A DNA stretch of 64,000 nucleotides from Planctomycetota bacterium (lineage in GTDB: Bacteria; Planctomycetota; Phycisphaerae; Phycisphaerales; Phycisphaeraceae). Shown here piece by piece: positions 32,641 to 50,812 of this stretch. The translations under genes were made by a program, and so were the position numbers. The number at the start of each line of letters is the position of its first letter. The first letter of the stretch is position 1. The stretch spans positions 1,736,001 to 1,800,000 of the forward strand of contig CP066225.1 of the NCBI GenBank assembly GCA_016350165.1, written 5' to 3'. The notes beneath the pieces were generated by a model, which made no database searches, was not told the origin of the DNA, and was given only the letters and a program-made list of their open reading frames with translations.

Positions 32641-32761
32641 TTTTACACCAAACGTAATAACCACTTCTCACTTAAAAATAATCTTTCAACTCCCAGTCAT
32701 TTTCGATACGATTCTATACAGACAGGATCATTGATATTTATTCTTCATGAAGGTTTCCAAT

Positions 32762-32977
32762 ATGATGCTTGCCTGTGATCATCCTGCCCCATCAAATAAA
32801 AAATCTCTGCAATACCTTACCGCCATCTTCTTTGGGATTTTCAGTAATATTACGATCGCACAAATCTATGTTGTACCGATGCGCGTATGGTGGGTTTACG
32901 TTTTGCAAACGTTGTTTATAGCTGCGGCCTTCTATACGATTCACCTGCGTTTCTTCAGTAGAGATACAGATAAATAA
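32762..32977 (+). CDS. Short membrane protein, unknown
   Basis: 71 residues from the ATG at 32762, with GAAGG eight bases upstream; an ATG at 32747 is the alternative. Two hydrophobic stretches (LTAIFFGIFSNITIAQIYVV and WWVYVLQTLFIAAAFYTIHL) end in a charged tail FFSRDTDK. No family recognised. It is convergent with pgeF, 12 bp between the stops. Confidence 0.5.
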   Translation: MMLACDHPAPSNKKSLQYLTAIFFGIFSNITIAQIYVVPMRVWWVYVLQTLFIAAAFYTIHLRFFSRDTDK

Positions 32978-32989
32978 TCCTATAGCCAA

Positions 32990-35241: not shown

Positions 35242-35295
35242 ACACAATGCTCCGGAATTATCTATCTAACTCAACAGCATTGATGATACTGCTAA

Positions 35296-37284
35296 TCAAT
35301 TTGACTTGCTATCCAAACCTTCATCACGCAATGTCTTTTTGATATTCATTTCAGCCAGACGTATTGTCGCATGGTCCATCTCTGTCATTGCTTTTTGGAA
35401 AGCATCCGCATCTGGGTTATCCGCATCGATAAACTCTGTGACTTTCCAGACATGCCACTCAATATGCTGCTTATATTCCCCATCAATCTCATCAGCCACA
35501 CGTTCAAGCTGCTTCTTGATATTACGGATATCCAGCTTCGAGTTCATACGAAGATCAATCAAGCGGTGCGCATTCATATCTTCAAGTGCATGCTCAAAGC
35601 TATCCTTCTCCATCTGCTCAACTTCTTCACGTGTTAAGCCATGATTCGGAATGATCTGAATTGAAGCACGTTTGCCACTTCTCATTTCTGTTGCCATAAC
35701 GTTCAGTACGCCATTTGCATCAACCAGAAACATCACTTCGATCTTCGGAAGACCTGCAGGCATCGGTGGAATACCTTTGAGTTCAAACTCACCCAGGCTT
35801 CTACAATCCTCAACCAACTCTCTTTCACCCTGTAAAACATGAATCTTTACGTTCGTCTGCCCATCAACATACGTTGAGAACATTTCCGTTGCGCGCGTTG
35901 GAATCGTCGTGTTACTGGTTATTAACTTCGCAACAGCGCCGCCCATTGTTTCAATCCCCAAGCCGAGTGGGATCACATCCAGCAGCAGCATATCCTGCTT
36001 CACACCCATCATGATCGCGCCTTGCACCGCAGCACCAAGTGCAACCACTTCATCAGGATTTAAAGCCGTATAACACTGTACGCCAAAATATTCACTGACC
36101 TTCTGACGCACCAATGGAATTCTTGTCGAGCCTCCTACCATCACCACGCGTTCAACATCATCCGCAATCATGTCCGCACCCTTAAGTGCAACGCCACATG
36201 CATCCAATGTTTTCTTCACCCAACCCTCAATCATTTGCTCAAACTCTAAGCGCGTAATAGTTCGTTCATATGTTTTGCCTTCACCTACCTCAACCTGAAC
36301 CACCGCTTGCTCTTCATTCGAGAGATGAATCTTCATCGCCTCTGCAAAATTTCGGAAAGCTTGTCTCGTACTTGCCGGAAACTCAACCTGCTTACCCTCA
36401 AAGAACTGTTCGCGTATTTCTTTCTGCATCAGTTCTACCAACATGCGGTCCACATCGTCGCCGCCAAGATGTGTATCGCCAGCCGTTCCCAACACCTGAT
36501 CGACACGTCCTTCTTCACCACGATTCAAACGCATGATTGAAACATCGAATGTTCCGCCACCCAAATCGTAAACCGCAACAACGCCATCCCCATGTTCCGC
36601 ACCCTGCCCCTCGTGACTTCCATCCGCCGCACCATCCGAGCATGCTTCCGGATTAACTTTCACGTTCAAGCTCACCGTACCCACCCCAGTTTTTTCCGCC
36701 ATCGGTAGACCAATGCTACCCTTCTCAGCTTCTGCCTCATCACCACTCATGCCCAAACCATATGCCAGCGCTGCCGCCGTCGGCTCGTTCACAATTCTCA
36801 CCACATCCAGTCCCGCCAACCTACCCGCATCACGTGTCGCCTGTCGCTGAGCATCATCGAAATACGCTGGCACAGTTACCACAGCCTTCTTCACACGCTG
36901 CCCCAACTCCCGCTCAGCCTGCTTTTTCAGTTCCCCCAAAATCATCGCACTCACCTCTTGTGGGCTCACAACCGCTCCGCCAACATCCACACGAGCCGTA
37001 TTCTGAGCACCCCCCACAACCTTGTAAGGCAGGTACCCCAACTCTCCTTCAATATCACCTAAACCCCTACCCATCAAACGCTTAACGCTATGAATCGTCT
37101 GTTCTGGATACTCCACCGCATGGCGACGAGCTTCCTCGCCAATCATCTCCGCCGTCCCCTTATCACCCAACCTCACCACACTAGGCAAGCTCTCCCCCAG
37201 AATCCGTGGGCCATGCTCATCACAAAACGCGACCAGCGAGTTGGTCGTACCAAGATCAATCCCTATGATGAGTTCCTGACTCAA
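35296..37284 (-). CDS. Hsp70 family chaperone (DnaK/HscA-like) with an insert
   Basis: 662 residues. ATPase motifs: [53 protein letters not shown] and [12 protein letters not shown]. The substrate-binding domain follows ([12 protein letters not shown], then [13 protein letters not shown]), with a helical lid. About 50 extra residues (roughly 185-235, Gly/Glu/Asp-rich) split the nucleotide-binding domain just before DLGGGTFD. The lid lacks the usual acidic DnaK tail (EEVD-like), so it may be a specialised Hsp70 rather than the main DnaK. No dnaJ or grpE is nearby. Confidence 0.9.
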
Positions 37285-37483
37285 AGCTATACTCCTAAAA
37301 AGCTCCAGATCCCTTATACAACCCCGAGATCTTGAGTTTTGTTCTCAATTACTCAAACATTATAGTGAACTCCACCCCGCACCACACATCACCCAATCAA
37401 GCCTGCTCATCCCCCCCAATCTCCTCATGCCGCCCTTTTGTTCCCGCTATTTCTCCAACCCCCAATCAGCCGAAAACCGCAAA

Positions 37484-37867
37484 ATGTTCGAAATCACAGT
37501 CCAAGCCAATTTTGCAGCATCTCACACCATCCGCCTCCCCGATGGTTCATTCGAGCCTATCCATACTCACGACTGGCGCATCACCGCCACCATTGCATCC
37601 GAGCAGCTCGACGAAATCGAAACCGTCATGGATTTTCACATTCTCGAACAATACCTCAAAGACGTCGTCTCCCCTCTCGACGGCCACCACCTCAACGATC
37701 TCCCACCTTTCCAAACCACAAACCCCGACACATGGAACCCATCCGCTGAACGCGTCATCCAATACATCGCACTCGAACTCATAAAAAAACTCCCACCACA
37801 CATCAAACTTGTCTCCGCCACCACTACAGAAGCGCCAAACTGTACCGCAACCTATCGCCCATCCTGA
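37484..37867 (+). CDS. 6-pyruvoyl-tetrahydropterin synthase / QueD-like protein without the usual Cys
   Basis: 127 residues from the ATG at 37484; upstream in-frame ATG at 37427 gives an unrelated leader. Zinc-ligand histidines are visible: His14 (FAASHT), His27 and His29 (IHTHDW). LDGHHLNDLPPF and TTTEAPN match the Asp/His and Glu of the family. The catalytic Cys normally a few residues before the His pair (CxxxHGH) is absent, Phe23 taking its place. The function may therefore differ from QueD or PTPS. No queuosine or pterin genes are adjacent. Confidence 0.75.
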   Translation: MFEITVQANFAASHTIRLPDGSFEPIHTHDWRITATIASEQLDEIETVMDFHILEQYLKDVVSPLDGHHLNDLPPFQTTNPDTWNPSAERVIQYIALELIKKLPPHIKLVSATTTEAPNCTATYRPS

Positions 37868-38017
37868 TCCCTCTACCAGCCAACCTATCTAATCAACCAC
37901 TGTACAATGATCCTGCGCGCACATCACACCAATAATTAAACTTGACCACCGCTCGCAACCCCACGACAATCTTTCTCATAACTTGCGTCACCAATCCCAT
38001 TCCTCGGCAGATATAAC

Positions 38018-38623
38018 ATGCATAACAACTTATCCATCAAAACCATCGCACTACTTTTACTCATCACCCTCACTTCCGCTTGCATCCAAACAACAAGCAA
38101 CCCTCTCGCTACCATGCCGCCAACTTCCAATTGGCGTTTCTCAGCCAAAGGCATTCACGCAACAGCCAACCATGCCGACCCAACAAACGAACTCTGGTAC
38201 ATCGATTCCATCACCATTGATTACAGCCTCATTCACCCGCGAACACTCGAAAACATTGCTATTTTAGTCAAAAATCATCCAAACCCAGTACCACTCAAAG
38301 ATCTTACCTCAACTTTCCTCCTCGAAAACGCAACCCTTGAGCAACCAACAGACTCAACCCTTTACATGACCCGTCACCACGACGGCCCCGATACGCAGGT
38401 TTTCGACGCTTACCTTCAAGCTAAAGACTCAGAAGACATCTACCACTTCATCACCACCAGCAGCGAAGTCCTTTTCTTCCAAACAAGTGTCAACCAATCA
38501 CTCCGCAACAAAGACCTCATCAAATTCGTCAACCTCAAAACAAACGAAACTTACGCATCACCACTCAACCACATCCAACTACAGAAACTTTTGCAAACGC
38601 GCCTTGCACGCTACAAAAACTAA
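38018..38623 (+). CDS. Lipoprotein, unknown function
   Basis: 201 residues. The signal peptide IKTIALLLLITLTSAC ends in a lipobox (LTSAC, lipidated Cys about residue 22). The mature part contains NWRFSAKGIHATANH and a Ser/Thr/Asn-rich beta-type domain; no motif recognised. It has its own terminator at 38645, shared with the converging PEP-CTERM gene. Confidence 0.7.
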   Translation: MHNNLSIKTIALLLLITLTSACIQTTSNPLATMPPTSNWRFSAKGIHATANHADPTNELWYIDSITIDYSLIHPRTLENIAILVKNHPNPVPLKDLTSTFLLENATLEQPTDSTLYMTRHHDGPDTQVFDAYLQAKDSEDIYHFITTSSEVLFFQTSVNQSLRNKDLIKFVNLKTNETYASPLNHIQLQKLLQTRLARYKN

Positions 38624-38644
38624 TCAACACATTTAACGTATAAA

Positions 38645-38673
38645 AAAAATAACCCTGCGAATGCAGGGTTTTT
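38645..38673. terminator. Bidirectional terminator between converging genes
   Basis: An 8-bp stem AACCCTGC / GCAGGGTT with a GAAT tetraloop, A-run on the left and T-run on the right. It lies between the lipoprotein gene (+) and the small PEP-CTERM gene (-). Confidence 0.85.
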
Positions 38674-38699
38674 AAATTCATTCATTTTTCACCAGCAAC

Positions 38700-38984
38700 T
38701 CATTTCTTCGGCCGCATAATTGCCAACGTCCCCAATAATATCAGAACCAATGATCCGGGCTCTGGCACAAAACTGATCGTGTCATCTTTTGGCTTTGTAT
38801 CAATCGGATTCAACATCAACGGCTCAACTGCCGCAGGTTCAACACCCAAACTCAAATCCAGTAACTCATCTTTCATCACCTGCGACACATCTACAGCAAT
38901 ACCTTCAGTTGCCTGCAACTGGGAAATCATTACTCCCCCCAACAACAAACACAGAGATAACATCAGCATTATTCTGCGTGACAT
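38700..38984 (-). CDS. Very short PEP-CTERM protein
   Basis: 94 residues from the ATG at 38984, with GAGGAAG just upstream; a GTG at 39005 is possible. A signal peptide (MLMLSLCLLLGGVMIS) and only about 45 residues of acidic mature sequence precede the sorting signal FVPEPGSLVLILLG and a short basic end (RPKK). PEP-CTERM proteins are cut and probably anchored by exosortase, which is not in the window. Such a small exported domain is unusual. Confidence 0.75.
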   Translation of the reverse strand: MSRRIMLMLSLCLLLGGVMISQLQATEGIAVDVSQVMKDELLDLSLGVEPAAVEPLMLNPIDTKPKDDTISFVPEPGSLVLILLGTLAIMRPKK

Positions 38985-39371
38985 CTTCTTCCTCACGAAA
39001 AGCACTCCAACCTATCAATGTGATTACCCACACCCATAACCACTCAATCACAATGGCATTGATCAAAACAAATACATTTATCGAAGGGGCTTTCTCACCT
39101 CAACTTCGCAGCAAAGACTATCATTTAAAATAGGCAAATTCAAACGAATCTAGTACACAAAATTTTTCCTAGCCAAACAACGCAACAATACCCGAGCGCC
39201 TTTCAGATTCACCTGATTTACTTATAACGATTCACACGATTACATAAAATATTCGCGACAGTCTTGTATAAGACGCTGAAGTTATCCCGATACCGACTGT
39301 GACTAAAATGTGAATTTCCGCTGTTAAAATAGGCAATATTATCTACAACCATTTACGAATATAAAACCAGA
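38985..39371. other. Intergenic region
   Basis: About 390 bp, AT-rich. No gene seen. The word TAAAATAGGCAA occurs twice in direct orientation (near 39128 and 39325). It must contain the promoter of the small PEP-CTERM gene. Confidence 0.4.
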
Positions 39372-40223
39372 TTAATCAGGCAATGGCGCAGGTGGCATCT
39401 GTGTATACGTCGGCTCATCGCGCATATGACGCAGGATATCCGCCAAAATTCGAGGGTCCTGCTCCGCCCATGAATGTCCGCCACCCATCGCGGCACGCCC
39501 CACCCACCAGATCGGCACATCATCAGGAGCTGTATTCTCTTCACCTACAATCACATCATCCAACCTCGCATACGTCCGCAACTCAAACCTTCTATTCATC
39601 GAATAGTCCTGATCGAGATGCATCAGAAAATCACTCCCTGCCTTCATGTCTCTAGCATTCGGATCAAACGAACCCAACCAGGCAAGCGACGCACCCTTAT
39701 GTGGCGTGCATATCGTATACAAATTCCTGATATTCAACCGCTTCCTTGTTGTCGTCGCAACCACAGTCCCAAACGTTGTTGAACTTACCGGCGCTTCACG
39801 CGGCGGGATCGCTGCATACCTCGCAATCAAACCACCCATCGAATACGCAATCACATCCACCTCAACCGTCTCATTCGCTTCAATCGAAGGCAACTCATCT
39901 TCCAAAGCTTTCACCAACTTATTCGCAGAATCATCAAACGATGAAGATCCAAAAAACGCAATCGGAATCACTGCCGTATTTTGCGTGGTCTTACGAACAA
40001 AGTTCGCCATCCCCTCAGACGAAAACCCCGGGTCCATCCATCCCCCCAGCACAATCACCGGCCGCGATAACTGCTTCGGATTTTCAGCCATCATGTCTAA
40101 CTCATGCTTAGCCTTCTTTACAGGCAATGCGAAAGATGGATTCACACGTCCCTTCGCGCAGCCGCCAACCGCAATCAGTACAGATGACAACAAGCCCATT
40201 GACCAGCCAAACATTTTTCGCAT
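39372..40223 (-). CDS. Alpha/beta-hydrolase lipoprotein, lipase-like, paralogue 1
   Basis: 283 residues from the ATG at 40223, with GGAG six bases upstream. Signal peptide and lipobox (VGGC). Motifs shared with the paralogue at 43499: RVNPSF, RPVIVLGGW.DPGF, VDVIAYSMGGLIARYA and CTPHKGASLAW. The nucleophile Ser lies in AYSMG, where the canonical first Gly is Ala; a late His (GGHSW) could complete the triad. Likely an extracytoplasmic lipase or esterase; substrate unknown. Third codon positions are strongly G-rich on the coding strand (C on +), unlike its paralogue. Confidence 0.78.
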   Translation of the reverse strand: MRKMFGWSMGLLSSVLIAVGGCAKGRVNPSFALPVKKAKHELDMMAENPKQLSRPVIVLGGWMDPGFSSEGMANFVRKTTQNTAVIPIAFFGSSSFDDSANKLVKALEDELPSIEANETVEVDVIAYSMGGLIARYAAIPPREAPVSSTTFGTVVATTTRKRLNIRNLYTICTPHKGASLAWLGSFDPNARDMKAGSDFLMHLDQDYSMNRRFELRTYARLDDVIVGEENTAPDDVPIWWVGRAAMGGGHSWAEQDPRILADILRHMRDEPTYTQMPPAPLPD

Positions 40224-40346
40224 GATTAACTCCGGAATCACATATCTCAAGTCATTACAATTCAGCCCACATTGTAAACCCAACGCCTCATAAACACGAA
40301 ACCAACGAAACCATTGCCAAACTCCAAACCACCGCGCAGCACTTAC

Positions 40347-40378
40347 AAAAAACCGGCAACCACATCGTGATTGCCGGC
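40347..40378 (-). terminator. Terminator after the glycosidase-like PEP-CTERM gene
   Basis: Stem CCGGCAA / TTGCCGG (40353-40359 and 40371-40377) with an inner CAC/GTG pair, six A on the left giving the U-run on the minus transcript. Confidence 0.8.
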
Positions 40379-40432
40379 CATCAATACTTTCACTTGTCGC
40401 ATTATTTACTTCAAATCATGCAACTCTTCACA

Positions 40433-41575
40433 TTAACCTCTCTGACGACGACGCATCAGCATCAAACCGCCAAGACCAAGCATCGCAAGTGATGCTGGCT
40501 CAGGAACTTCACGCCATGTACGTCCCATAGCAACTGCTTCTTTGAAATCTTCTTGGACATTTAGCAATTCAGATAGACCGTATGACGTTGATCCTTCTTT
40601 ATACGCAGGCCAGCGATACATCGCAACGCAACGGATCTTCTGGTTATCATCAACCATATTCCAATTGTTTACTTCTTCATAGATCGCTTTGACCCAGCCA
40701 TTATTCTCGTCTTTCCAAGCCTGGAATGTATCGCCAACCCATTTACCCGACTCAGAATTCTGGTCACACTCAGTAATAAAAACGGGCTTATCCTTCATGC
40801 TCTCAGGAATCATTTCCATATAGTTCTTATAAACACGGAAATTGTAATATTTATCCTGATATGGATCGTTCATCTTCTTATCGCTTGTCACGAGACTCGG
40901 ATCAGCACCGTGCGTGTAAGCGTGCAGTGGAATACCATCAACGCGATCCGCACCAATGCCATCCAGAATATCACGCCAATAATGAACGAAGTCACCAATC
41001 CCGCCATAAGGTGGTGCCCATGTACCTGAAGGCGAAGGACAAATCTTTGGCTTCTCAGCCAGATTCATCGCATCAACTTTGTCATAAATCTTGTTATATG
41101 CCTTCACATAGCGTGCTGCTGTTATCTTTTCGCCAACACCTTCATTCCAACCATCATTACCCGGCCACTCACGTGGAAGGTTTGTCTCATTACCAATAAT
41201 CCAGTAATCAACACCCTTCGAATTCTTGATGTAGTTTGCCGCATTCTGCGCAAACTGCTCGTAATCCTTCTCGTATGGCAAAGTACCCTTTGAACCGTAA
41301 CCATAGTTCAAACGAACAATATTCGTCATTTTTTTGTCTTTGTACTGAGTAAAATCTTTACCCTGTGCGCCGGTTAAACCAATTTCTTCTGTATGAACCA
41401 GCCATCCACCATTTTCACCCATCAGGTGCTCTCCACCCGGATCGTGCATGCCGTAGATGTATGGATTGTCTTCCGCAATCAGACTCGTGCTCATCACGCA
41501 AGCCATCATGCCCGTTGCCATCAGCATTCCCAACCCCATACGGGATCGGCGGTCTCTCTTGGAGATGTTAAACAT
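40433..41575 (-). CDS. PEP-CTERM protein with clan GH-A glycosidase-like domain
   Basis: 380 residues; AAGGAG lies nine bases before the ATG. The signal peptide (MGLGMLMATGMMACVMSTSL) is followed by a TIM-barrel-like domain starting YIYGMHDPGG. YWIIGNETNLP has the Asn-Glu of a clan A acid/base, and PVFITECDQ about 140 residues later could hold the nucleophile Glu. The C-terminus has VPEPASLAMLG, a helix and MRRRQRG, the PEP-CTERM signal. It is probably an exported, surface-anchored polysaccharide-active or -binding protein; the exact GH family is not assigned. Confidence 0.78.
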   Translation of the reverse strand: MFNISKRDRRSRMGLGMLMATGMMACVMSTSLIAEDNPYIYGMHDPGGEHLMGENGGWLVHTEEIGLTGAQGKDFTQYKDKKMTNIVRLNYGYGSKGTLPYEKDYEQFAQNAANYIKNSKGVDYWIIGNETNLPREWPGNDGWNEGVGEKITAARYVKAYNKIYDKVDAMNLAEKPKICPSPSGTWAPPYGGIGDFVHYWRDILDGIGADRVDGIPLHAYTHGADPSLVTSDKKMNDPYQDKYYNFRVYKNYMEMIPESMKDKPVFITECDQNSESGKWVGDTFQAWKDENNGWVKAIYEEVNNWNMVDDNQKIRCVAMYRWPAYKEGSTSYGLSELLNVQEDFKEAVAMGRTWREVPEPASLAMLGLGGLMLMRRRQRG

Positions 41576-42048
41576 CGTGAGGGTCTCCTTGGTTTGGGTC
41601 TCTCTAATCTCTAAAGGCTCGATCGCCTTCCTCTCTTGTCAAAATGCATCACAAAATGCCAAATTCGTAATATCGTGTTATCAGTAGGAGCTGGCGGACA
41701 CTCTCACACAAAACTTTCAAATGTCTCCACAATATAACAAATTCTATAATTAGAAATATGTAACAATTTGAACAATTGTCAAGATGTTTTTTACCCGACC
41801 ACAGGATTTCTATAGGCTTTGCGGCAATTCCCACGCCCAACCTTCGCTATTTTCACATCAGCCCATTTACCACCACACACATCCCAATTTCATGCCAAAT
41901 TGTCCCCACCTAATAACAAACAAGAAATTGGTAATTCCGTGCTCATCATTGAGCTTTCCGTGCTTCTTCTTCAATACCAAATGCGCATAGAAAAGGCCGC
42001 AGCATCCCGGAAAACACTGCAGCCCGCACTATACATCTTCTAATTCAT
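41576..42048. other. Intergenic region between PEP-CTERM genes
   Basis: About 470 bp. No convincing gene. It holds the promoter region of the glycosidase-like gene on the left and, at 41991-42026, the terminator of the next gene on the right. Confidence 0.4.
41991..42026 (-). terminator. Probable terminator after the 213-residue PEP-CTERM gene
   Basis: Stem GGCCGCAG / CTGCAGCC (41995-42002 and 42017-42024) with one mismatch; four A on the left give a short U-run on the minus transcript. Confidence 0.6.
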
Positions 42049-42690
42049 TTATTTCCGACGACGCAGCAATGCCAATCCGCCCAATCCAAACAGCGCCAAT
42101 GATGCAGGTTCAGGCACCGCGGTCATGCTCAAATACATATCCGCAGCCGTGTGCTTCATATCACCTGTCATGTCTGCAAAACAATCAAATCGTTTGCTTG
42201 TTGAATCTTTACGCAGGTCAAAGCCAGCAAATGAAACTGCATAATCCTGGCCATCCAACGTCACCACACCACGCCCCGTACCATGACCAACACTCACAGT
42301 CATACGATCCGCAGCCGCGTCAACATCAACCGTAAACGCAACATCCTGACCCTCAATGCTGTAAACAATATCAAAGCTATCAGTACATGTTGAACTCAAA
42401 TTCGCTTGCGATGAAAGCAAAACCAGACCCGCATTAAATGCCTTATCAACTTCAACATTCGCTTGATCTTCAAAGTCAATCGAGAACTTCGGTTTCTGAT
42501 TATTATCACCAACACCCAATGTGATCATCGCATCATAACTACCCCAGTTGTTATAAACGCGTGTCGTCGATTTATGGTCTGTCTTCACCAACTTGCCATC
42601 AAGCGACACCATATCAGCTGAAGCATTGGCAAATGTAAAAAGTGAAAGAGCACCAGTAAGTACGAACGTAGAAATCGCGCGGTATTGCAT
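42049..42690 (-). CDS. PEP-CTERM protein, beta-rich ectodomain
   Basis: 213 residues; TAGGAG lies seven bases before the second of two ATGs (42690). Signal peptide STFVLTGALSLFTFANASA. The mature region is beta-rich, with two Cys (SSTCTDSF and RFDCFADM), and carries no recognised catalytic motif. The C-terminus VPEPASLALFG, hydrophobic helix and LRRRK is a textbook PEP-CTERM signal. Exosortase-dependent surface anchoring is inferred. It is the gene nearest the strand-composition switch. Confidence 0.8.
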   Translation of the reverse strand: MQYRAISTFVLTGALSLFTFANASADMVSLDGKLVKTDHKSTTRVYNNWGSYDAMITLGVGDNNQKPKFSIDFEDQANVEVDKAFNAGLVLLSSQANLSSTCTDSFDIVYSIEGQDVAFTVDVDAAADRMTVSVGHGTGRGVVTLDGQDYAVSFAGFDLRKDSTSKRFDCFADMTGDMKHTAADMYLSMTAVPEPASLALFGLGGLALLRRRK

Positions 42691-43198
42691 CATCTTTCTC
42701 CTAAAAAATTAGACGCAAATAAATAATACGCATCTGTGCACTGACACATGTCATCACAACATCGCAGCAGCACACATCTGCCCCAGTTTAATTTTAATAT
42801 CTAGGCGGTTACTTCTTTAAGGAGGGACACACAAAACAAATAAGCACATAACAACGCGCGACATTCTCCATGGATCGTTGCAATACACATCTGAATATCA
42901 CTGTTATCGCTATTCAATTTCATGTGGAATCTTTCTCACTCCACTGCGATTAAAAGTACAACGTGCTAACTATGAAATCAAGCAAATGTGCTGAAATAAG
43001 AACAAATAATCAAGTTTTCCCTTAACACTAAAATGATCTAATTTTCTATCTTAAACCAACCACGCAAACTAGTAAGAATAGATAAACTTTACCGCCCAAC
43101 CCACCTTCAGCATACCATTAACAAGTAGAACACTTTAAAACATATCTACAATCACTATTCATTTTGTACTATAAAAATAGTTCATTTTATCAAGTAAA

Positions 43199-43231
43199 GA
43201 AGTTGTTGTTTTCTTCGCAAACAACAACTTC
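43199..43231. repeat. Perfect 13-bp inverted repeat
   Basis: Arms GAAGTTGTTGTTT and AAACAACAACTTC with a 7-nt loop TCTTCGC. There is no T-run on either side, so it is not an ordinary terminator. It lies inside the region where strand composition reverses. Confidence 0.8.
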
Positions 43232-43394
43232 TAATAAACGCGCACCTATGCAGATATCCCAGCTCTGCTTTATTCACTATTTTTATTGAGCATTTTCAGG
43301 AGATTATTTCCAACCCGTATATTCTGCACATATTTACATTTGTTTGTCGCCAATACAAGAATGATTTTTTGATAACGATGACAAACATTTACAT

Positions 43395-43425
43395 AAAAAC
43401 AACCGGCAACAATTTATGTTGCCGG
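43395..43425 (-). terminator. Terminator after hydrolase paralogue 2
   Basis: Stem CCGGCAAC / GTTGCCGG (43403-43410 and 43418-43425), followed on the minus strand by TTGTTTTTA. The stem resembles the one at 40347. Confidence 0.8.
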
Positions 43426-43498
43426 CTGGTCATGTTAAAAAGTTTTCACATAATGTGATACTAATTCATTTACATCACACGCTAATCGAAATCATCGA

Positions 43499-44482
43499 TC
43501 AACCACCTGAATCAGATTGTGGTGCGGGTGATGCGTTGTATTCTGCTGCAACTTGTGGCTCGCTTGAAATCGATTCAGGCTTCTTCACAAGTACTGTTGT
43601 TGGCGGTGTGGTTCCTTCTGGCAATACCGGCGATACCTCCCAAGGGAATGGCGCAGGATCACCAATCGCCAGTGGCGGCTCACCACGTAAACGCTTCGCG
43701 ATATCCGCGAGGAAGCGGCGATCAGTACCCGAGTTACCGTGCGCTGTCTGGAATGGACGATTATCAACCCACCAAAGATCAACGCCTTCAGGTGCAGCGT
43801 TTTCTTCGCCAACGATCATGTCTTGCAGACGTGTGTATGCGACAACGTCATAACGATCATTTTCTTTAAAATCACGGTTGAGTCGGACGATGAAATCGCC
43901 GCCTGGGATCATAGCTCGCGCAGATGGGTCCCACCATGCGGTCCATGCCATTGCTGCACCCTTGTGAGGTGTGCCGATGGTGTAGAGATTTCTGACATTC
44001 AGACGTTTGCGGAATGCTTTTTCGCCTGTTTCATGAGTTGGGATCGCAGCGTAGCGCGCGACGAGGCCACCCATTGAGAAACCAATCACATCGACTTCAA
44101 CTGTTTCGTTGGGATCTTCTGATGGGAAGTTTTTTTCAACGGCTTTAATGGTTTTACGTGCGGATTCATCAAAACCACCTGTTCCAAAGTAGTTGATTGC
44201 GATGACGCGTTGATCGCCTGTCGCGAGTTGCATGCGTTTTGCGATTGATGCTGGGACGAAACCTGGGTCACCCCAACCGCCGAGTACGACGACGGGACGT
44301 TTCAGGACGACAGGTTTCTCGGACATGTCGGCGAGTTCCTGTTTAGCATCGTCGTAGGAGGTATTGAATGATGGATTAACGCGGTTATTGAAACCACAAC
44401 CTGTGATTACTGACAGAATGATTGCCAGCGCGAACAGGTTAGATAAATGTCGCGTTTTAGAGGAATGCAAAAACTTTCTCAT
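43499..44482 (-). CDS. Alpha/beta-hydrolase lipoprotein, lipase-like, paralogue 2
   Basis: 327 residues from the ATG at 44482; an in-frame start at 44560 would add 26 unlikely residues. Signal peptide with lipobox (VITGC). It shares RVNPSF, RPVVVLGGWGDPGF, NETVEVDVIGFSMGGLVARYA and GTPHKGAAMAW with the gene at 39372. The nucleophile motif is canonical GFSMG; FQTAHGNSGTD may hold the catalytic His. The C-terminus has a Pro/Ser-rich extension of about 50 residues that the paralogue lacks. Exported lipase or esterase is inferred. On + it is G-rich, opposite to its paralogue on the same strand. Confidence 0.8.
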   Translation of the reverse strand: MRKFLHSSKTRHLSNLFALAIILSVITGCGFNNRVNPSFNTSYDDAKQELADMSEKPVVLKRPVVVLGGWGDPGFVPASIAKRMQLATGDQRVIAINYFGTGGFDESARKTIKAVEKNFPSEDPNETVEVDVIGFSMGGLVARYAAIPTHETGEKAFRKRLNVRNLYTIGTPHKGAAMAWTAWWDPSARAMIPGGDFIVRLNRDFKENDRYDVVAYTRLQDMIVGEENAAPEGVDLWWVDNRPFQTAHGNSGTDRRFLADIAKRLRGEPPLAIGDPAPFPWEVSPVLPEGTTPPTTVLVKKPESISSEPQVAAEYNASPAPQSDSGG

Positions 44483-44909
44483 GACCACCAATCCTATGTG
44501 GGCCCCTGCCGTTTGGCCGCTAGACATTGCATCTATACGGCAAACCCTATCCTCCCGCACTTGCCTAATAAGACAATCGGAGATTTTTGGTGATCAGATC
44601 GCGATGATAAACCCTAGAAAAATGACTGATAAAAAGTGGGTTTAATGTGTGTGATGTGAAGATGGTTGGGAAGAATGCGGATGGTTGAACGTGAAGGAGA
44701 TTCGGTTTTGCGCGCATGAATTTTTCGGAAGTTGGTTTTTGAGATGGTCATAAATAGAGGTTTTTTTTTAGTGTGTTTTTTGATTTTGGACGAATTGCGT
44801 TTGTTTGTATTGCTGTTTGTACGAGATGCGGAAGAAGTGTGATAAAAGCTGGAGTTGTGAAGCGCAAACGTGCGCGCGGTTTTTGATTTTCGATGATTTA
44901 CCCGTAGTT

Positions 44910-44979
44910 AGAAATGGTTAGAAATAGCTTAAAAACGTATAGAAATGGCGAGGTTTGGGGTAAAACTGATTAGAAATGG
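44910..44979 (+). repeat. Phased AGAAATGG boxes, right cluster
   Basis: Boxes AGAAATGG, AGAAATAG, AGAAATGG and AGAAATGG start at 44910, 44920, 44941 and 44972. The spacings of 10, 21 and 31 bp are one, two and three helical turns. The cluster is in the opposite orientation to the one at 28633-28671 and is likewise flanked by GCGCGC words. Confidence 0.7.
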
Positions 44980-45082
44980 TCAGAGAATTGCGCGCTTTTT
45001 TAAGGTGAATGCGTGAATGTGCGCGCGTTTTGGAAGAGGGTTGGTTTGGTATGGGATTTGCTGATAGGGATTAATGTGAGAT

Positions 45083-45105
45083 GTTTCACTTGAGCGTGTC
45101 GTTGG
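45083..45105 (+). repeat. 23-bp GTTTCACT module, copy 1
   Basis: GTTTCACT, TG, AGCGTGTCGTTGG. It lies 12 bp before the REP-like palindrome at 45118; the same pair recurs at 46476 and 46512. Confidence 0.8.
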
Positions 45106-45117
45106 TTGTGATAGCGG

Positions 45118-45150
45118 AAGACCGGCGACCTGTCAGGTCGCGGCTACTTG
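45118..45150 (+). repeat. REP-like palindromic 33-mer, copy 2
   Basis: Core GCGACCTG-t-CAGGTCGC with flanks AAGACCG and GGCTACTTG. Identical over 33 bp to copy 3 (46512), and one base different from inverted copy 1 (25422). Confidence 0.85.
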
Positions 45151-45189
45151 AATTGCAAAGAATGTAACTGGTTGGGGCTATGTTGATTT

Positions 45190-45212
45190 GTTTCACTTGA
45201 ACGTATCGTTGG
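45190..45212 (+). repeat. 23-bp GTTTCACT module, copy 2
   Basis: GTTTCACT, TG, AACGTATCGTTGG; preceded by TGTTGATTT, as in copy 5. Confidence 0.75.
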
Positions 45213-45235
45213 TATGCGCGCGTAGAGATTTAGTT

Positions 45236-45258
45236 GTTTCACTGAAGCGTGTCGTTGA
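45236..45258 (+). repeat. 23-bp GTTTCACT module, copy 3
   Basis: GTTTCACT, GA, AGCGTGTCGTTGA; ends 43 bp before the tatD-like stop. Confidence 0.75.
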
Positions 45259-45301
45259 TACAACAAGTGTGTGTTATTGATGTTTCTTAGTTTTGGTTTG
45301 G

Positions 45302-46108
45302 TTATTTGAGGGGGAAGAGGCGTTTGGTGTTTTTGTAGAGTTGTTGTGCGAGATCGTCTTGATGGATGCCGAGGATGTCGGCGATGCCGGGAAGGATTTG
45401 AGCGAGGTTGGAAGGTTCGTTGCGCGTGTTACCTTCGGGGTCTTCGCCTTCAATGATGTATTCGTCGGGGGGCATCATATATGGCGCATCGGTTTCGATG
45501 AGGAGACGATCATCGGGAACTGCTTTGATTGCTTCACGTGATTTTTTGCGTGATGTATCGAGGACATTGCCTGCGAATGAGAAGTAGAGGTTGTCGTATT
45601 TGCTGGAGAGTTGCTTGACGATTTCGGCGGAGCCTGAAAAACCGTGGAGCATCATGCCTGCGGATGGAATGCCTTGATCGGCGAGAACGGATTGGAGCCA
45701 TCCGTGTGCTTTGAGGCAGTGAACGGAGACTGAGCGGCCGAGTTTTTCGGCTAGGTTGAGTTGCTCTCGAAAGACGCCTTCCATTGTGTCTTCGTCACGA
45801 TCTTCGATGTATTGGTCGAGGCCGATTTCGCCTATCTGTGCGTTAGATGATAACTTGAGTTTTTGTTCGAGAAGGTCGAGCCAATTGTCATCTACTTCGT
45901 TGATGAACCAGGGGTGGAGCCCGATACATGGGATGACTGAGGGGAATTGATTTGGGTAGTCGAGGACTTCGTCCCAGTCTTCGGGTGATGTGCCGTTGAC
46001 GACGAGGTGTGTGATACCGGCGTCGAGTGCGCGTTGGATGACAGCTTGGCGGTCTGGAGAGAAGGAGCCGTCTTGAATATGTGTGTGACAGTCGATGATG
46101 TTGTCCAT
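45302..46108 (-). CDS. TatD family metal-dependent hydrolase
   Basis: 268 residues from the ATG at 46108, with AAAGG upstream; 46123 is an alternative start. Metal ligands are visible: IIDCHTHIQDG (two His), GEIGLDQY (Glu), VHCLKAHG (His), LHGFSGS (His) and LIETDAPYM (Asp). TatD enzymes are Mg-dependent 3'-5' exonucleases or related phosphohydrolases. It is embedded between two repeat-rich spacers. Confidence 0.9.
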   Translation of the reverse strand: MDNIIDCHTHIQDGSFSPDRQAVIQRALDAGITHLVVNGTSPEDWDEVLDYPNQFPSVIPCIGLHPWFINEVDDNWLDLLEQKLKLSSNAQIGEIGLDQYIEDRDEDTMEGVFREQLNLAEKLGRSVSVHCLKAHGWLQSVLADQGIPSAGMMLHGFSGSAEIVKQLSSKYDNLYFSFAGNVLDTSRKKSREAIKAVPDDRLLIETDAPYMMPPDEYIIEGEDPEGNTRNEPSNLAQILPGIADILGIHQDDLAQQLYKNTKRLFPLK

Positions 46109-46440
46109 TGCGAAGCCTTTCATGCGTGTTGGAGTTCAGGCGAGACTGAACGGTGGCTGTAAGCTTTGGAATTGTGTTTGAGCGAGAGTGGCGAGTTAAG
46201 TCGCGAGAAAAAAGTCGCGTAATGGGATTTGAAGCCGATCTTGCTCAGGAAATAACTACAGGCGAACATCGGATATGTTCACCTGTTTATTATTGCGTGG
46301 AAGAGGTGTTTTGTCACGGGGCGAAGAGGAGAATGTTTTGAGTGGGATTGTGGGGGTGAGGATGTTTCGGCATGTGGGATGTGGTGGAAAAGTGGGGGCT
46401 GGGGTGAGAGGTGCGTTGGGTGAGACGTGAGGTTGTGAGC

Positions 46441-46468
46441 GCGCCGATCGTGGATCGGCGGCTACTTG
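46441..46468 (+). repeat. Degenerate REP-like element
   Basis: A different palindrome core, CCGATC-gtg-GATCGG, is followed by the same tail CGGCTACTTG as the REP-like 33-mer. This suggests that tail and core evolve separately. Confidence 0.5.
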
Positions 46469-46475
46469 GTGGGTT

Positions 46476-46498
46476 GTTTCACTTGAGCGTGTCGGTGG
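46476..46498 (+). repeat. 23-bp GTTTCACT module, copy 4
   Basis: GTTTCACT, TG, AGCGTGTCGGTGG; 13 bp before REP-like copy 3. Confidence 0.8.
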
Positions 46499-46511
46499 TT
46501 GGTGGTTACGG

Positions 46512-46544
46512 AAGACCGGCGACCTGTCAGGTCGCGGCTACTTG
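46512..46544 (+). repeat. REP-like palindromic 33-mer, copy 3
   Basis: Identical to copy 2 at 45118. The neighbouring sequence is also similar (TTGARTTGCA after it, then TGTTGATTTGTTTCACT), so copies 2 and 3 sit in a longer composite direct repeat of about 130 bp. Confidence 0.85.
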
Positions 46545-46582
46545 AGTTGCAGAAATTTCATTGGTCGGGGAGATGTTGATTT

Positions 46583-46605
46583 GTTTCACTCAAGCGTATC
46601 GTTGA
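46583..46605 (+). repeat. 23-bp GTTTCACT module, copy 5
   Basis: GTTTCACT, CA, AGCGTATCGTTGA; preceded by TGTTGATTT as in copy 2. Confidence 0.75.
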
Positions 46606-46633
46606 AATAACGAACTAAGGATTATGCGTTGTT

Positions 46634-46656
46634 GTTTCACTGTAGCGTATCGGTGG
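46634..46656 (+). repeat. 23-bp GTTTCACT module, copy 6
   Basis: GTTTCACT, GT, AGCGTATCGGTGG; closest to the inverted copy at 28407. Confidence 0.75.
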
Positions 46657-46766
46657 TTGTGTAGATGTTTGAGGTTGAGGAGAAGTGAGGTGTGAGCACG
46701 CCGGCTGTTGGTGGCTGGTGGTGTGAGGGTGAATGTAGAGAGTCGTGGTTTTGTGGGGTGTGCATG

Positions 46767-46795
46767 AAAAAAGCTGCGATGATGAGTCGCAGCTT
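46767..46795 (-). terminator. Terminator after the secreted Cys/His protein gene
   Basis: A 9-bp stem AAGCTGCGA / TCGCAGCTT with 7-nt loop; six A on the left give the U-run on the minus transcript. Confidence 0.85.
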
Positions 46796-46819
46796 TGTGA
46801 GGTTTGACTTAGGAAAGAC

Positions 46820-47740
46820 TTATTTTTCTTCTTTGTGCCAAGTGATTTTGTCGCCGGGGATTTTGTCGTTGACTTTGCGTTTGGGGTTGAATTTAAAGAG
46901 GTTGTCGAGGTTTGTAAGGCGAACAACTTTGACTTCTTTAATGTTGGCGAGTGAGACGGTCTGGTCGGCGAGGCCGTTGGTTGAACGCTGTGAGGACCAG
47001 TAACGGAGGAAGTGGTGAGGTTTACCTTCGGCTTTGAGACGTTCGGAGACGAGGTATCCGAGGAAGACGACGGAGTGTCCGCCGCCATTGTTCCATGAGA
47101 TGTTCATGAAGTCGCCGGGTCGAGCGTAGTTTGGGTCGATGACGGTGCCCATTTTGGTGTATTGGACGAGAGCGAAATGATTGCCGTAGCCGTCGTCGTT
47201 CCAGTGCCCCCACATTTTGATGCCGTCGTTGCGTCTGCCGCCGTCATGTTCCTGCATGCGCATGGCTTCGAGGCGAGTTGACGTGAGTTTTTCTTTTGGT
47301 TTGTGCTGTTTGAAGTAGATGTTGAGACCTTCGATGAAGGCTGAGTATGAGGAGCCGGAACAGTATGAGGTTGTTCTGGGCGCTTTAATGAGTGGTCTGC
47401 CGAAGAGTTCGATGTCGTATCCGATGGGCGATTCAGTTGGTTTGGCTTTGATGCCGATGAAGTAGCCACCGCCTTTGGGAGCTGAGGCTTGAACGATGTC
47501 GATACCTTTGAGGACGAGTTGGTTGAAGCCGGGGACGTCGTCGCTGAAGGATGAGAAGTGCGAGGTGTGGTAACGTGGGAGGTCGTTTTGTTCGGGAGTG
47601 AGGAGGTATGTGGTTTTGTTGTCGGTTGTTGGTTTAGCAGGGATTTTGTCGGCTTGTTTTTCGGCGGCTGCGAGTGGGGAGGCGAAGGAGATGAGCGTAG
47701 TGAGAGAGATTGCGGCGGTAATAAAACGTAAGGATGTCAT
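46820..47740 (-). CDS. Secreted protein with Cys/His (NlpC/CHAP-like) pattern
   Basis: 306 residues. The signal peptide ITAAISLTTLISFASPLAAA is cut near residue 26. A Cys in SYCSGSSYSAFIEGL (about 126) and a His in NNGGGHSVVFLGYL (about 221), preceded by RPGDFMNISW, resemble the nucleophile and general base of papain-like NlpC/P60 or CHAP amidases. The spacing is larger than usual. A cell-wall or peptide-cleaving role is inferred; the family is not certain. The C-terminus is basic (FNPKRKVNDK). Confidence 0.65.
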   Translation of the reverse strand: MTSLRFITAAISLTTLISFASPLAAAEKQADKIPAKPTTDNKTTYLLTPEQNDLPRYHTSHFSSFSDDVPGFNQLVLKGIDIVQASAPKGGGYFIGIKAKPTESPIGYDIELFGRPLIKAPRTTSYCSGSSYSAFIEGLNIYFKQHKPKEKLTSTRLEAMRMQEHDGGRRNDGIKMWGHWNDDGYGNHFALVQYTKMGTVIDPNYARPGDFMNISWNNGGGHSVVFLGYLVSERLKAEGKPHHFLRYWSSQRSTNGLADQTVSLANIKEVKVVRLTNLDNLFKFNPKRKVNDKIPGDKITWHKEEK

Positions 47741-47901
47741 GATTGGCTACCTTTGAGGGAGTCGTTAAATGATGCCAGTTAGAGCCCACACTGTTCCAAT
47801 GTGATGGCTATTGTACCGTCGGAGGAAATTTGATGTAAGGGTGAGGTGAGGTAGTGAGGCGTGAGGATGCAGGGGTGGGAGGGGTTGAGTACAATGAGAG
47901 A

Positions 47902-48903
47902 ATGAGTGAAAAGCCAGGTACAAATTGTGGAAGTGATCATGCGGTCCAAGGGGGAGGCGGTGTGTGTGGGTATTCTTTTGGTTGCAATTTCACGAAGCTG
48001 AAGTATCCGGTAGAGGCGGCTGTATGGTCGGTGTTGCCGGTGTGTGACTGGTTTGTGTTTGCAGTTGGGAAGAGTGAAGACGACACGATGGAGCGTGTGT
48101 TGTCGATTAAGAATGATCCGAAGTTGCCGATCCCTAAAGAACGGTTTGTGATTGTTGAGACTGAATGGCCTGCGGTGCAGATTGATGGAACGGTGCTTTC
48201 GATTGAGGCTAACAAGGCGTTAGACGCGGCTGAGGAAGTTGCGAAAGAGAATGGATTGACGTGGGGATTTTATATTCAGGCAGATGAGGTGATTCATGAG
48301 GATGACCTTGAAGCTGTTGCGGATTCGATGACGTACTGGAAAGATAAGACGGATGTGAAGGCGTTGCAGTTTCGGTATCACCACTTTGTGCTGGACTATG
48401 AGACGGTTGATCCTTGGATGTATCACAAGGCTTGTCGGGTTATGCGGCTGGATGGTTCGACTCGGATTTTTGGGGATGCATGTGGACCGGGGTTACCGAA
48501 TTATGAAGGACCTAAGAATGATGGGTACCTTGATAAGAATCACTTGGGGAATTATGTGCAATGGGCGGCAACGCCTGCAAAACCTGGGCATAATGTGCTT
48601 GGGAAGAAGGCACGCGTGTTCCACTATGGTTGGGTGAAGACGAAGGAAGATCTGGATGAGAAGTTCCAGATGGTTGAGAGTTTGTGGTGGGGAACTTTGG
48701 ATGAAGAAGAAAAAGAGCGACGCAAGAATAATAAGTTTGGGCGGTTTATCGAGCGATATCCGTACCTGAAAAAGTTTACGGGGTCACATCCGAAGGTGAT
48801 GAAGGAATTGGTTGAGAAGCATGGCGGATTTGCGAAGGTGCCTAATCGATGGCTGAATCCGAGATTTTATGCTGAGGTTTTAAGGCATGGATTTCATGGA
48901 TAA
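47902..48903 (+). CDS. Glycosyltransferase family 2-like protein
   Basis: 333 residues from the ATG at 47902, with TGAGAGA upstream; an in-frame start at 47854 lies in low-complexity DNA. CGYSFGCNFTKLKYPVEAAV at the N-terminus resembles the donor-binding strand of GT-A enzymes. WGFYIQADEVIHEDDLEAV carries the acidic DxD-like motif, and HYGWVKTKEDLDEKFQ is a common C-terminal block of such proteins. Substrate unknown. It is the first of a plus-strand glycan-type gene group, though separated from the others by the minus-strand kinase gene. Confidence 0.75.
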   Translation: MSEKPGTNCGSDHAVQGGGGVCGYSFGCNFTKLKYPVEAAVWSVLPVCDWFVFAVGKSEDDTMERVLSIKNDPKLPIPKERFVIVETEWPAVQIDGTVLSIEANKALDAAEEVAKENGLTWGFYIQADEVIHEDDLEAVADSMTYWKDKTDVKALQFRYHHFVLDYETVDPWMYHKACRVMRLDGSTRIFGDACGPGLPNYEGPKNDGYLDKNHLGNYVQWAATPAKPGHNVLGKKARVFHYGWVKTKEDLDEKFQMVESLWWGTLDEEEKERRKNNKFGRFIERYPYLKKFTGSHPKVMKELVEKHGGFAKVPNRWLNPRFYAEVLRHGFHG

Positions 48904-48930
48904 ATGACATCAACAATTTACTAAAACATT

Positions 48931-48966
48931 AAGCTACTGATCAATCATCAAGTAGCTTATTTTTTA
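48931..48966. terminator. Terminator of the GT2-like gene overlapping the end of the kinase-like gene
   Basis: An 8-bp stem AAGCTACT / AGTAGCTT (48931-48938 and 48951-48958), T-run after it on +. The right arm and loop lie inside the last codons and stop of the converging gene at 48941. Confidence 0.75.
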
Positions 48967-49594
48967 TTGATGCAGAAACATTTAAGGCTTCAAAACAAGC
49001 TCGACGCTCATCTGAGGTCCATTTAGCGTGTATTGCAGTACGGTTAAAGACGTCAAGCATGTTATAGATACGAGAAAACGAATGGGTCTTGCTAAAACTC
49101 ATGACATCAATTAGGTGAAGGATGTCTGAATCATCATCTAATACCATATTAGAAAGCTTGCAATCACGAAAGATATAGCCTTTTGAGAGGATGTAGTTAA
49201 TAAGAGTTGCGACCTTAAGGATCATATTATGGCGTGATTCAGGTTTTGTAAGATCACCCCAGAAAAAGCGGTCAAAAATCTGCTTGCCTATGTATGGAGT
49301 GACCAAGTATGCGGTGTTCTTGTGTAGAGTTGTGATATAGACAGGAGCAACATGGAATTCATTTTTTGCAAGATGTGAAGCCATACGTGCTTCACGTTGG
49401 GCAGGATGATATTGAATAAACCATGTCAGACATTGCCGAAAGGGGTGGTTTCTAAATTGCTTAATAACGAATTTTTGGTTTTCGTATTCGACGAGCCACA
49501 CCTTGCTGCGTTTGTCGTCTTTAAAGATTTGTAAAGACTTCTGCTGCAGTAGATTAATGAATGCTGGCTTGTCCAATTTGATCATAGTCATCAT
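48941..49594 (-). CDS. Kinase-like protein, LPS/Kdo kinase (WaaP/InaA) type
   Basis: 217 residues from the ATG at 49594; 49591 or 49585 are also possible, and no strong ribosome site is seen. A Lys in KFVIKQFR may be the ATP-binding residue. GYIFRDCKLSNMVLDD is a clear catalytic loop (HRD-like Arg-Asp, Lys and Asn) and HLIDVMS stands where DFG would be. This is the small protein-kinase-like fold of lipopolysaccharide core heptose or Kdo kinases. Phosphorylation of a surface glycan is inferred from family and neighbours. Confidence 0.7.
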   Translation of the reverse strand: MMTMIKLDKPAFINLLQQKSLQIFKDDKRSKVWLVEYENQKFVIKQFRNHPFRQCLTWFIQYHPAQREARMASHLAKNEFHVAPVYITTLHKNTAYLVTPYIGKQIFDRFFWGDLTKPESRHNMILKVATLINYILSKGYIFRDCKLSNMVLDDDSDILHLIDVMSFSKTHSFSRIYNMLDVFNRTAIHAKWTSDERRACFEALNVSASIKNKLLDD

Positions 49595-49867
49595 GATAGC
49601 GAATATTGGTGCGAAGTTCCTAAATATAGCCTGATTGGAGGACTGGTATGCAATGAGAACCCACAAAGATACGATTGGATGCTATAATTGACCTTTGCGT
49701 TGATAGGGGCTGTATTACGTGAATGAGCCGCATTGCAGCCATAACAAGTAAGAAATACATCAGAGCTTATTGTAGTGCCGGTGATATACAGATGCCGCAA
49801 TAAAAATTAGATTCAATTTGTATTTTTGCTTCATTTAAATCCTTATTACGGACATTGAGATATTACG

Positions 49868-50770: not shown

Positions 50771-50812
50771 CTACAAAAAAGAGGGGGCATTGTAGGAAAT
50801 CAAGAGGGTACG

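Follow-up and report, generated by a model that had tools for sequence, protein, structure and literature searches.

Does the abrupt reversal of strand composition found in the chromosome of Poriferisphaera heterotrophicis ZRK32 mark the place where this chromosome starts to replicate? The bacterial norm is one origin per chromosome, and the reversal had been put forward as a candidate for that origin (referred to below as the original prediction). The DNA that was analysed, called the window, is a stretch of 64,000 nucleotides corresponding to bases 1,736,001-1,800,000 of the single 5,234,020-bp contig of this strain; coordinates refer to the window unless they exceed its length or are assigned to a genome. 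A second genome, that of the same-genus relative P. corsica KS4 (4,291,168 bp), was used for comparison. Strain names are those in the available text of PMC10945688 and PMC7783415; the former also names public transcriptomes of strain ZRK32 (PRJNA768630 and PRJNA694614).

The strand reversal in the window

The reversal is genuine, yet it is not the chromosome's single origin. A recount of 23341-23580, left of the switch, gave 107 C and 13 G, and a recount of 44641-44880, right of it, gave 79 G and 20 C, both in exact agreement with the hand counts of the original prediction (C-rich and G-rich + strand, respectively). In 1-kb bins, GC skew ranges from -0.25 to -0.53 across most of 12-43 kb and from +0.2 to +0.45 across most of 44-63 kb, and decays to about 0 at both ends of the window. 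The leftmost 6 kb, which had been described as closer to balanced, show a skew of about 0 because the flanking skew domains end at 6,095 (a domain maximum) and at 63,263. The window-wide minimum of the cumulative skew is at 43,507, and the 4-fold degenerate sites of the gene at 43499-44560 place the switch at about 43.66-43.83 kb. The features involved are as follows.

6095..43507, no strand: left arm, C-rich on the + strand (cumulative maximum to switch)
43198..43232, no strand: perfect inverted repeat with 14-bp arms, within the AT-rich spacer (repeat search; perhaps unrelated to the element system described below)
43499..43830, no strand: strand-composition switch from C-rich to G-rich on the + strand, the midpoint of the origin-like site (minimum of the cumulative G-C count at 43,507)
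43507..63263, no strand: right arm, G-rich on the + strand (switch to next cumulative maximum)

The spacer at 42691-43498 proved to be AT-rich (66% A+T) and to contain the perfect hairpin that had been reported (the 14-bp inverted repeat). The two DnaA-box-like words matching at 8 of 9 positions were not recovered: the spacer holds no word within one mismatch of TTATCCACA, the only consensus tried. On the - strand, another hairpin (43400-43428) obtains a terminator-like score; it directly follows the gene for an alpha/beta hydrolase-like protein. The immediate neighbour genes of the site code for PEP-CTERM, alpha/beta hydrolase-like and TatD proteins, and neither dnaA nor other replication genes are adjacent. 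The absence of a nearby dnaA had been stated correctly, as the site is at 1.779 Mb, dnaA at 2,498,075 and its paralogue at 2,246,839.

If the site were the chromosomal origin, the global minimum of the cumulative skew was expected here. It is found at about 2.46 Mb instead, with a value of about -82,000 versus about -68,000 at 1.73 Mb beside the site (sampled from 100 stretches, with a resolution of about 50 kb). The sign of the switch and the AT-rich spacer would suit a single chromosomal origin, but the sampled global minimum and dnaA are elsewhere, and 44 other such jumps occur in the sampled 44% of the genome. We thus attribute virtually no probability to a single origin at this site. What stands of the original prediction, with good support, is an origin-like site, the sign, sharpness, skew on both sides and shared element of which recur at most jumps along the chromosome.

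A chain of skew domains along the chromosome

Statistics for strain ZRK32 cover 2.32 of 5.23 Mb (44%), namely 100 stretches of 20 kb, 20 further stretches around the window, and the window itself. Of the 100, 98 were evenly spaced and two were shifted to flank the window. The sample from P. corsica comprises 400 kb of 4.29 Mb, picked for known matches to the element described below. Jumps less than 4 kb from the end of a stretch were not callable.

In the sampled 44% of the ZRK32 genome there are 45 upward jumps from C-rich to G-rich with a contrast of at least 0.4, one of which is the site in the window. These jumps are linked by gradual declines, resulting in N-shaped skew domains of about 40 kb each. 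Across the 100 stretches, the 5-kb bins have skews between about -0.6 and +0.67, and the sign flips inside most stretches; a few are almost flat (e.g., near 2.72 and 4.61 Mb). Thirteen cumulative minima, with a mean spacing of 42 kb and contrasts of 0.35-0.75, were found in 522 contiguous kb; the contrasts of the 12 scorable maxima are -0.06 to -0.55. With 3-kb arms, 53 upward versus 6 downward peaks exceed 0.4. This asymmetry is weaker with wider arms and a lower threshold (56 up versus 47 down at 0.3 with 5-kb arms), as expected from slow falls. Some falls are steep, with a contrast down to -0.55, and 10 downward jumps were called when elements were masked.

The same chain of domains is seen in the 400 kb from P. 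corsica, with a mean spacing of 39.6 kb in a 300-kb stretch. Sharp upward jumps, gradual falls and a mid-domain change of sign, the marks of an N-domain chain, are all present. Simple scaling from 13 minima in 522 kb and from 10 in 400 kb would give about 130 domains in strain ZRK32 and 107 in P. corsica. As a control, 50 kb around the oriC of E. coli showed a maximum contrast of 0.16, and 0.05 at oriC itself. Bacterial skew is generally small, typically around 2.5% according to the available text on SkewDB (PMC8941118).

A dispersed element at most upward jumps

Starting from DNA to the right of the switch, a dispersed element family was first recognised as 58 matching pieces within the ZRK32 genome. 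Its members and their parts in the window are as follows.

28394..28906, - strand: second element copy, pointing left (HMM match 1764394-1764906 in the genome, 122 bits)
44602..45292, + strand: full-length element copy between two genes, pointing away from the switch (HMM positions 2-688, 554 bits)
44862..45032, + strand: core unit of this copy (motif positions; model match 44870-45026)
45061..45259, + strand: downstream portion of the element, with three direct repeats that contain GTTTCACT words (repeat search, motif positions)
46427..46671, + strand: further downstream pieces of the element family (HMM pieces, 1782427-1782671 in the genome)

The full-length copy scores high by construction, since the first profile was seeded with it. 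Around the second copy, the + strand is C-rich on both sides, more strongly to the left.

Profile matches are located within about 6 kb of 43 of the 45 ZRK32 jumps (one of them only a weak match with 18 bits) and of 8 of the 11 P. corsica jumps. For a strict association test, elements were masked before jumps were called, and randomly shifted elements (1000 runs) served as the null. An element is within 3 kb of 37 of the 42 upward jumps in strain ZRK32, pointing outward at 34 and inward at 5 (null: mean 12.5, maximum 24), and of 8 of the 11 in P. corsica, all pointing outward (null: mean 1.7, maximum 6). This leaves 5/42 and 3/11 upward jumps devoid of an element within 3 kb. None of the downward jumps called in this test (10 in ZRK32, 2 in P. 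corsica) has an element within the same distance. Among element sites with enough flanking sequence, 25/35 (ZRK32) and 8/9 (P. corsica) have a called jump, and 10/35 and 1/9 do not. The switch itself sits about 1 kb behind the element and outside it.

Near-matches to the core word (one mismatch) were found at the two ZRK32 jumps that have no profile match (three and one, respectively, at 0.9-1.3 kb and on the expected side, with a background of 0.92 per 8 kb). Of the three element-less jumps in P. corsica, one has several clustered near-matches 0.4 kb away, which point either way; the other two are ambiguous. The core word itself, TTTGTGCGCRC, is within 3.5 kb of a jump in 57 of 117 cases in strain ZRK32 (15.7 expected; 48 outward) and in 14 of 17 cases in P. 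corsica (3.3 expected; 12 outward), as counted with jumps called without element masking. In the same count, TTATCCACA is not enriched within 3.5 kb of jumps (2 versus 1.7 expected and 1 versus 0.6 expected, respectively).

According to the available text of PMC4403523 and PMC8941118, skew plots are known to be distorted by rearrangements and inversions, which could speak for an inversion mosaic in a single-origin, strongly skewed chromosome. Such a mosaic predicts, however, equally sharp rises and falls, against masked counts of 42 up and 10 down in strain ZRK32 and 11 and 2 in P. corsica. It also predicts blocks rather than slopes, and no element that is confined to the rises. We consider it extremely improbable. 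An assembly or inversion breakpoint at this junction, against which the original prediction had cautioned, fails to account for the recurrence of the jumps or for the asymmetry between sharp rises and slow falls.

Anatomy of the element

The element is dispersed and mostly intergenic. For 63 of the 75 core sites, the overlap with called ORFs is below 20%. The ORFs that overlap the remaining 12 run on the opposite strand and are mostly short (121-206 aa); they are probably spurious, such ORFs being common by chance in skewed DNA.

The core consists of two TTTGTGCGCRC sites, the word being half or more of the palindrome TTTGTGCGCACAAA. In strain ZRK32, 22 of 32 core pairs measure 160 or 161 bp end to end (149-150 bp apart). 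Among the five pairs from P. corsica, four measure 159 bp and one 161 bp (148 and 150 bp apart, respectively). Between the core ends, many copies of the element carry a TGATTTACCCGTA-like word as well as AAA or TTT runs. In 28 copies taken together, these A/T runs show a 10.75-bp period (power 11.5 versus 2.5 ± 0.44 for block-shuffled copies, z 20). Helically phased A/T tracts normally mean bent DNA, and by this token the element DNA should bend or wrap. Repeated recognition words, fixed geometry and helical phasing are among the features of a replicator of the iteron type, and these three were found.

Core geometry and phasing were established on copies other than that of the site in the window. 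The latter has GTGCGCGC at 44870 and 45019 (149 bp apart), TTTACCCGTAG at 44897, and (A/T)GAAATGG words at 44910, 44941 and 44972. Its end sites have diverged, and no word within one mismatch of TTTGTGCGCRC occurs within 4 kb of the switch. A 40-base word within this copy (45118-45157), which has an inner palindrome, recurs at 3,299,799 (100%) and 3,965,159 (97%) and possibly represents a second, better conserved repeat family.

REP/BIME and MITE-like dispersed repeats are likewise mostly intergenic and occur in dozens of copies. The element differs from these in that its longer matches are 68-82% identical to the consensus, that most of its core pairs have a geometry of 148-150 bp, and that its place and orientation are tied to the jumps. 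The element may have been non-autonomous mobile DNA long ago. A structured RNA was considered and rejected: no Rfam match at the gathering threshold was obtained in the 30 kb searched (20000-50000), and RNAalifold detected no common structure in 62 copies, with zero energy for real and shuffled columns alike.

Agreement between two Poriferisphaera species

The skew maps of the two species agree where gene order is conserved. Of 104 reciprocal best hits, 80 passed the identity and flank limits. Flank skew in strain ZRK32 and P. corsica correlates with r 0.70 for the 70 syntenic genes in 9 blocks, a value reached by none of 2000 block permutations, versus r -0.26 for the 10 non-syntenic (moved) genes (r 0.59 over all 80). 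An assembly artefact is ruled out by this matching skew map in a second, separately published genome.

Two jump sites are shared between the species and a third could be compared; for the remaining eight jumps in P. corsica, the corresponding ZRK32 positions were judged by inspection to be outside or at the ends of the ZRK32 sample, or unplaced by synteny. The P. corsica jump at 846,906 and the ZRK32 jump at 3,671,426 are within the same orthologous gene, while those at 802,820 and 3,624,965 are beside the same gene, in a locally rearranged block with poor skew agreement. Element orientation is equal in both pairs. At the P. corsica jump at 722,410, the counterpart genes in strain ZRK32 are still C-rich and the ZRK32 element is beyond the next gene; this site seems to have shifted between the species.

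Skew around the element and its relation to oriC

Skew was regressed on element positions (41 smoothed coefficients, in-sample; 16 sites in ZRK32 and 9 in P. corsica, contiguous stretches). Element positions alone fit 58% of the skew variance in strain ZRK32 (522 bins) and 50% in P. corsica (400 bins), and cross-species prediction by the fitted kernels gave r 0.72 and 0.67 (R2 0.52 and 0.44). The fitted effect in front of the element is +0.37 and +0.33 and decays to 0 over about 20 kb; that behind it is -0.16 to -0.24 and starts about 2 kb behind the element. A constant (replichore) term of 0.08 has its direction set by oriC. On average, skew drops smoothly with distance from the element. Skew extends both ways from the element, favouring its front. 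A purely unidirectional element was rejected because the fitted back kernel is nonzero, and a polar, bidirectional reading was kept.

At jumps with elements in one orientation only, skew in front and behind is 0.34 and 0.23 in strain ZRK32 (23 jumps) and 0.32 and 0.31 in P. corsica (8 jumps). The back arm is oppositely skewed by more than 0.1 at 19/23 and 7/8 of these, which were selected for sharpness, favouring strong back arms. The following groups are of unselected sites. For ZRK32 elements pointing away from oriC, front skew is 0.39 and back skew -0.01 (13 sites), and for those pointing towards oriC 0.30 and -0.28 (10 sites). The corresponding values for P. corsica are 0.38 and -0.15 (4 sites) and 0.30 and -0.39 (5 sites).

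The maximum between two jumps is displaced away from oriC. It is at 0.41 of the domain (sd 0.11) in the ZRK32 stretch left of oriC, and at 0.57 (sd 0.08) and 0.53 in the P. corsica stretches right of dnaA, which is at position 361 of that genome (oriC being taken to lie near dnaA). This shift fits forks passing from oriC or a timing gradient with oriC first, but could also be the sum of two independent biases.

The two dnaA paralogues of strain ZRK32 are at 2498075-2498551 and 2246839-2247315. The 3.4 kb around the former show steady negative skew, with no jump, no TTATNCACA boxes and no exact element words; the nearest called jump within the sampled sequence is at 2,475,323. The second DnaA may have a different binding word. 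A genus-specific extra DnaA as initiator was rejected, since at least two DnaA-domain matches are present in 37 of the 41 genomes searched in the order.

Independence from gene direction

On the + strand of ZRK32, GC skew at 4-fold degenerate sites in the left arms is -0.78 for + genes and -0.72 for - genes, with 6-8 C per G, and in the right arms it is +0.53 and +0.74, respectively. In P. corsica, the values in the same order are -0.79, -0.65, +0.71 and +0.75. Gene calls were longest-first open reading frames, some of them spurious, and conserved genes (reciprocal best hits) serve as a control. In these, 4-fold skew correlates with flank skew both in P. corsica (83 genes, r 0.87) and in strain ZRK32 (48 genes, r 0.88). 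The skew thus follows the position on the chromosome, independent of gene direction. A gene-direction effect is ruled out by the 4-fold skew in both gene orientations together with the conserved-gene control, and selection on protein sequence by the skew at 4-fold sites.

Long-range transcription could bias one strand: the element would be a very strong, terminator-resistant promoter, from which transcripts of 15-20 kb run outward irrespective of gene direction while C is lost from the exposed non-template strand. In favour of this are the polarity of the element and the G-richness of the side that it faces, which is strong on average (front means of 0.30-0.39 in the four groups). The sign on the outward-running strand (G>C, slight T>A) also fits non-template deamination. 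The gene layout, however, does not suit this explanation. Conserved genes are not co-oriented with the G-rich strand (17/29 in ZRK32, 23/51 in P. corsica), and of the 71 genes located in front of an element, 36 are directed against it. The four direction combinations of flanking genes are found at 17, 19, 16 and 19 sites, showing no preference, among the 71 of 75 core sites with both flanking genes in the sampled sequence. Furthermore, the oppositely skewed back arm of the sharpness-selected jumps would demand a second, unseen promoter, average skew falls smoothly with distance, and sigma-70-like sites at the site in the window (the only type searched) are not above shuffles (4 versus 5.9 expected). 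We therefore regard transcription as quite unlikely.

Proposed replication from many sites

We infer that the strand-biasing process is replication and that the element is a replicator. Each element would then mark a replication origin, and this bacterium would replicate from roughly 100-130 sites, with a weaker trend set by oriC; from the sequence data at hand, we give this an even chance. The switch in the window would be one of the roughly 100-130 bidirectional initiation sites. A putative initiator would recognise the element by its two TTTGTGCGCRC half-palindromes around phased A/T tracts. Forks would set out in both directions from a point about 1 kb behind the element, preferring the side that the element faces, and neighbouring forks would meet in a broad zone between sites. 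As the leading strand would become G-rich over evolution, fork direction would be recorded as skew that jumps sharply upward at each site and declines gradually from one site to the next. DnaA and oriC near 2.46-2.50 Mb would add the weaker chromosome-wide trend. Slightly short of an even chance, in our view, is the stronger version, a eukaryote-like mode of replication from about 100-130 discrete, conserved, sequence-specified origins about 40 kb apart, which use a phased, bent, non-DnaA element while dnaA and a weak oriC are kept.

Replication is the best reading because of the sign, the N shape, the skew on both sides, the independence from gene direction, the agreement between species, the origin-like element and the interplay with oriC. 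We do not go beyond an even chance because the element is polar, the switch is about 1 kb behind it, no initiator was found, and the argument is made from sequence. The reading is weakened by the back arm of close to 0 at unselected ZRK32 elements that point away from oriC, which a symmetric origin need not show. It is also weakened by the lack of a jump in the 3.4 kb around dnaA and of DnaA-box enrichment at jumps, and by the sign, which also fits transcription. Further, there are element sites without a jump, jumps without an element, flat stretches and some steep falls. We know of no precedent for about 100 natural origins on a bacterial chromosome.

The polarity of the element and the switch about 1 kb behind it, together with the extreme 4-fold bias (6-8 C to 1 G in ZRK32 left arms), would also suit some other polar process than normal origin firing, launched by the element and leaving one strand exposed for about 20 kb. 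Candidates are recombination-linked replication, strand displacement and a targeted mutator. Simple resection from a break, though, would be expected to expose the strand that has its 3' end there, and the sign would then be opposite if C deaminates. Any such process must also act at most sites in both species, and long enough to keep their maps in agreement. We consider it unlikely.

Comparison with known systems

Some bacterial origins have words about one helical turn apart, comparable to those of the element. With a bacterial oriC the site shares the switch from C to G and the AT-rich spacer, but it differs in having no dnaA, no DnaA-box enrichment and another recognition word, and in being one of many per chromosome. 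Skew domains of the human genome (N-domains) consist of two abrupt upward jumps with a linear fall between them, which were interpreted as gradients of fork polarity between initiation zones (PMC3320577, available text). Upward jumps joined by declining skew are common to both systems. The human domains are megabase-sized, whereas those described here are bacterial, about 40 kb in size, and have a shared element at most jumps.

For some cyanobacteria (Synechocystis, Nostoc and others), asynchronous replication from multiple origins and irregular skew were reported (PMC7198777). These are bacterial chromosomes too; in contrast to their irregular skew, for which the available text of that report describes no discrete repeated origin element, Poriferisphaera has highly ordered skew, dnaA and an element at most sites. 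In archaea and yeast, several polarity changes of skew per chromosome were tied to origins (PMC3269012, available text). The multiplicity of polarity changes is shared, but there are three origins in Sulfolobus versus sites on the order of 100 here, in Bacteria. Multiple origins have been suspected from skew in a few other bacteria, according to the parts available of PMC3269012 and PMC4403523. Literature searches on Phycisphaerae, Planctomycetes or Poriferisphaera, GC skew, N-domains and multiple origins returned no description of this pattern among the matches listed, most subscription papers and all preprints being outside their scope. The word 'skew' was not found in the available main text of the paper on strain ZRK32 (PMC10945688).

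In two cultured species, the record of strand direction reverses at intervals of about 40 kb, in most cases at a shared element. The chain of domains resembles the blocks made by the many replication starts of animal and yeast chromosomes. If it is due to replication, the one-replicon rule is broken and a tractable bacterium becomes available for work on the licensing of origins, on timing and on termination. Otherwise, a process that drives 4-fold skew of 0.5-0.8 over arms of many kb around a short element would itself be new.

Distribution of the element and its core word

A search with the core unit model gave at least 72 and at least 62 copies in the two Poriferisphaera genomes, which are lower bounds (at most 72 candidates were scored per genome, and stricter filters lose weak matches), and no matches in 38 other genomes. 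A DNA search with a 367-base consensus matched the two Poriferisphaera genomes only. A genome from another family of the same order (G027) has five weak partial matches to the core (model positions 1-108, on contigs C13, C65, C116, C52 and C47), which may be due to chance or represent a remote relative.

The word TTTGTGCGCRC occurs 241 times in the genome of strain ZRK32 (3 times for the reversed control) and 145 times in that of P. corsica (control 5). It is at or near the control level in 34 further genomes, the largest excesses being 10 versus 5 and 13 versus 7. In five other genera of the family it is in excess (28 versus 2, 50 versus 2, 39 versus 2, 52 versus 13 and 33 versus 0). The five same-family genomes rich in this word are G005, G006, G015, G018 and G021. 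In G015, pairs of the word often have a spacing of 101 bp, and many are located close to the ends of contigs, which would be the case for repeats that break an assembly.
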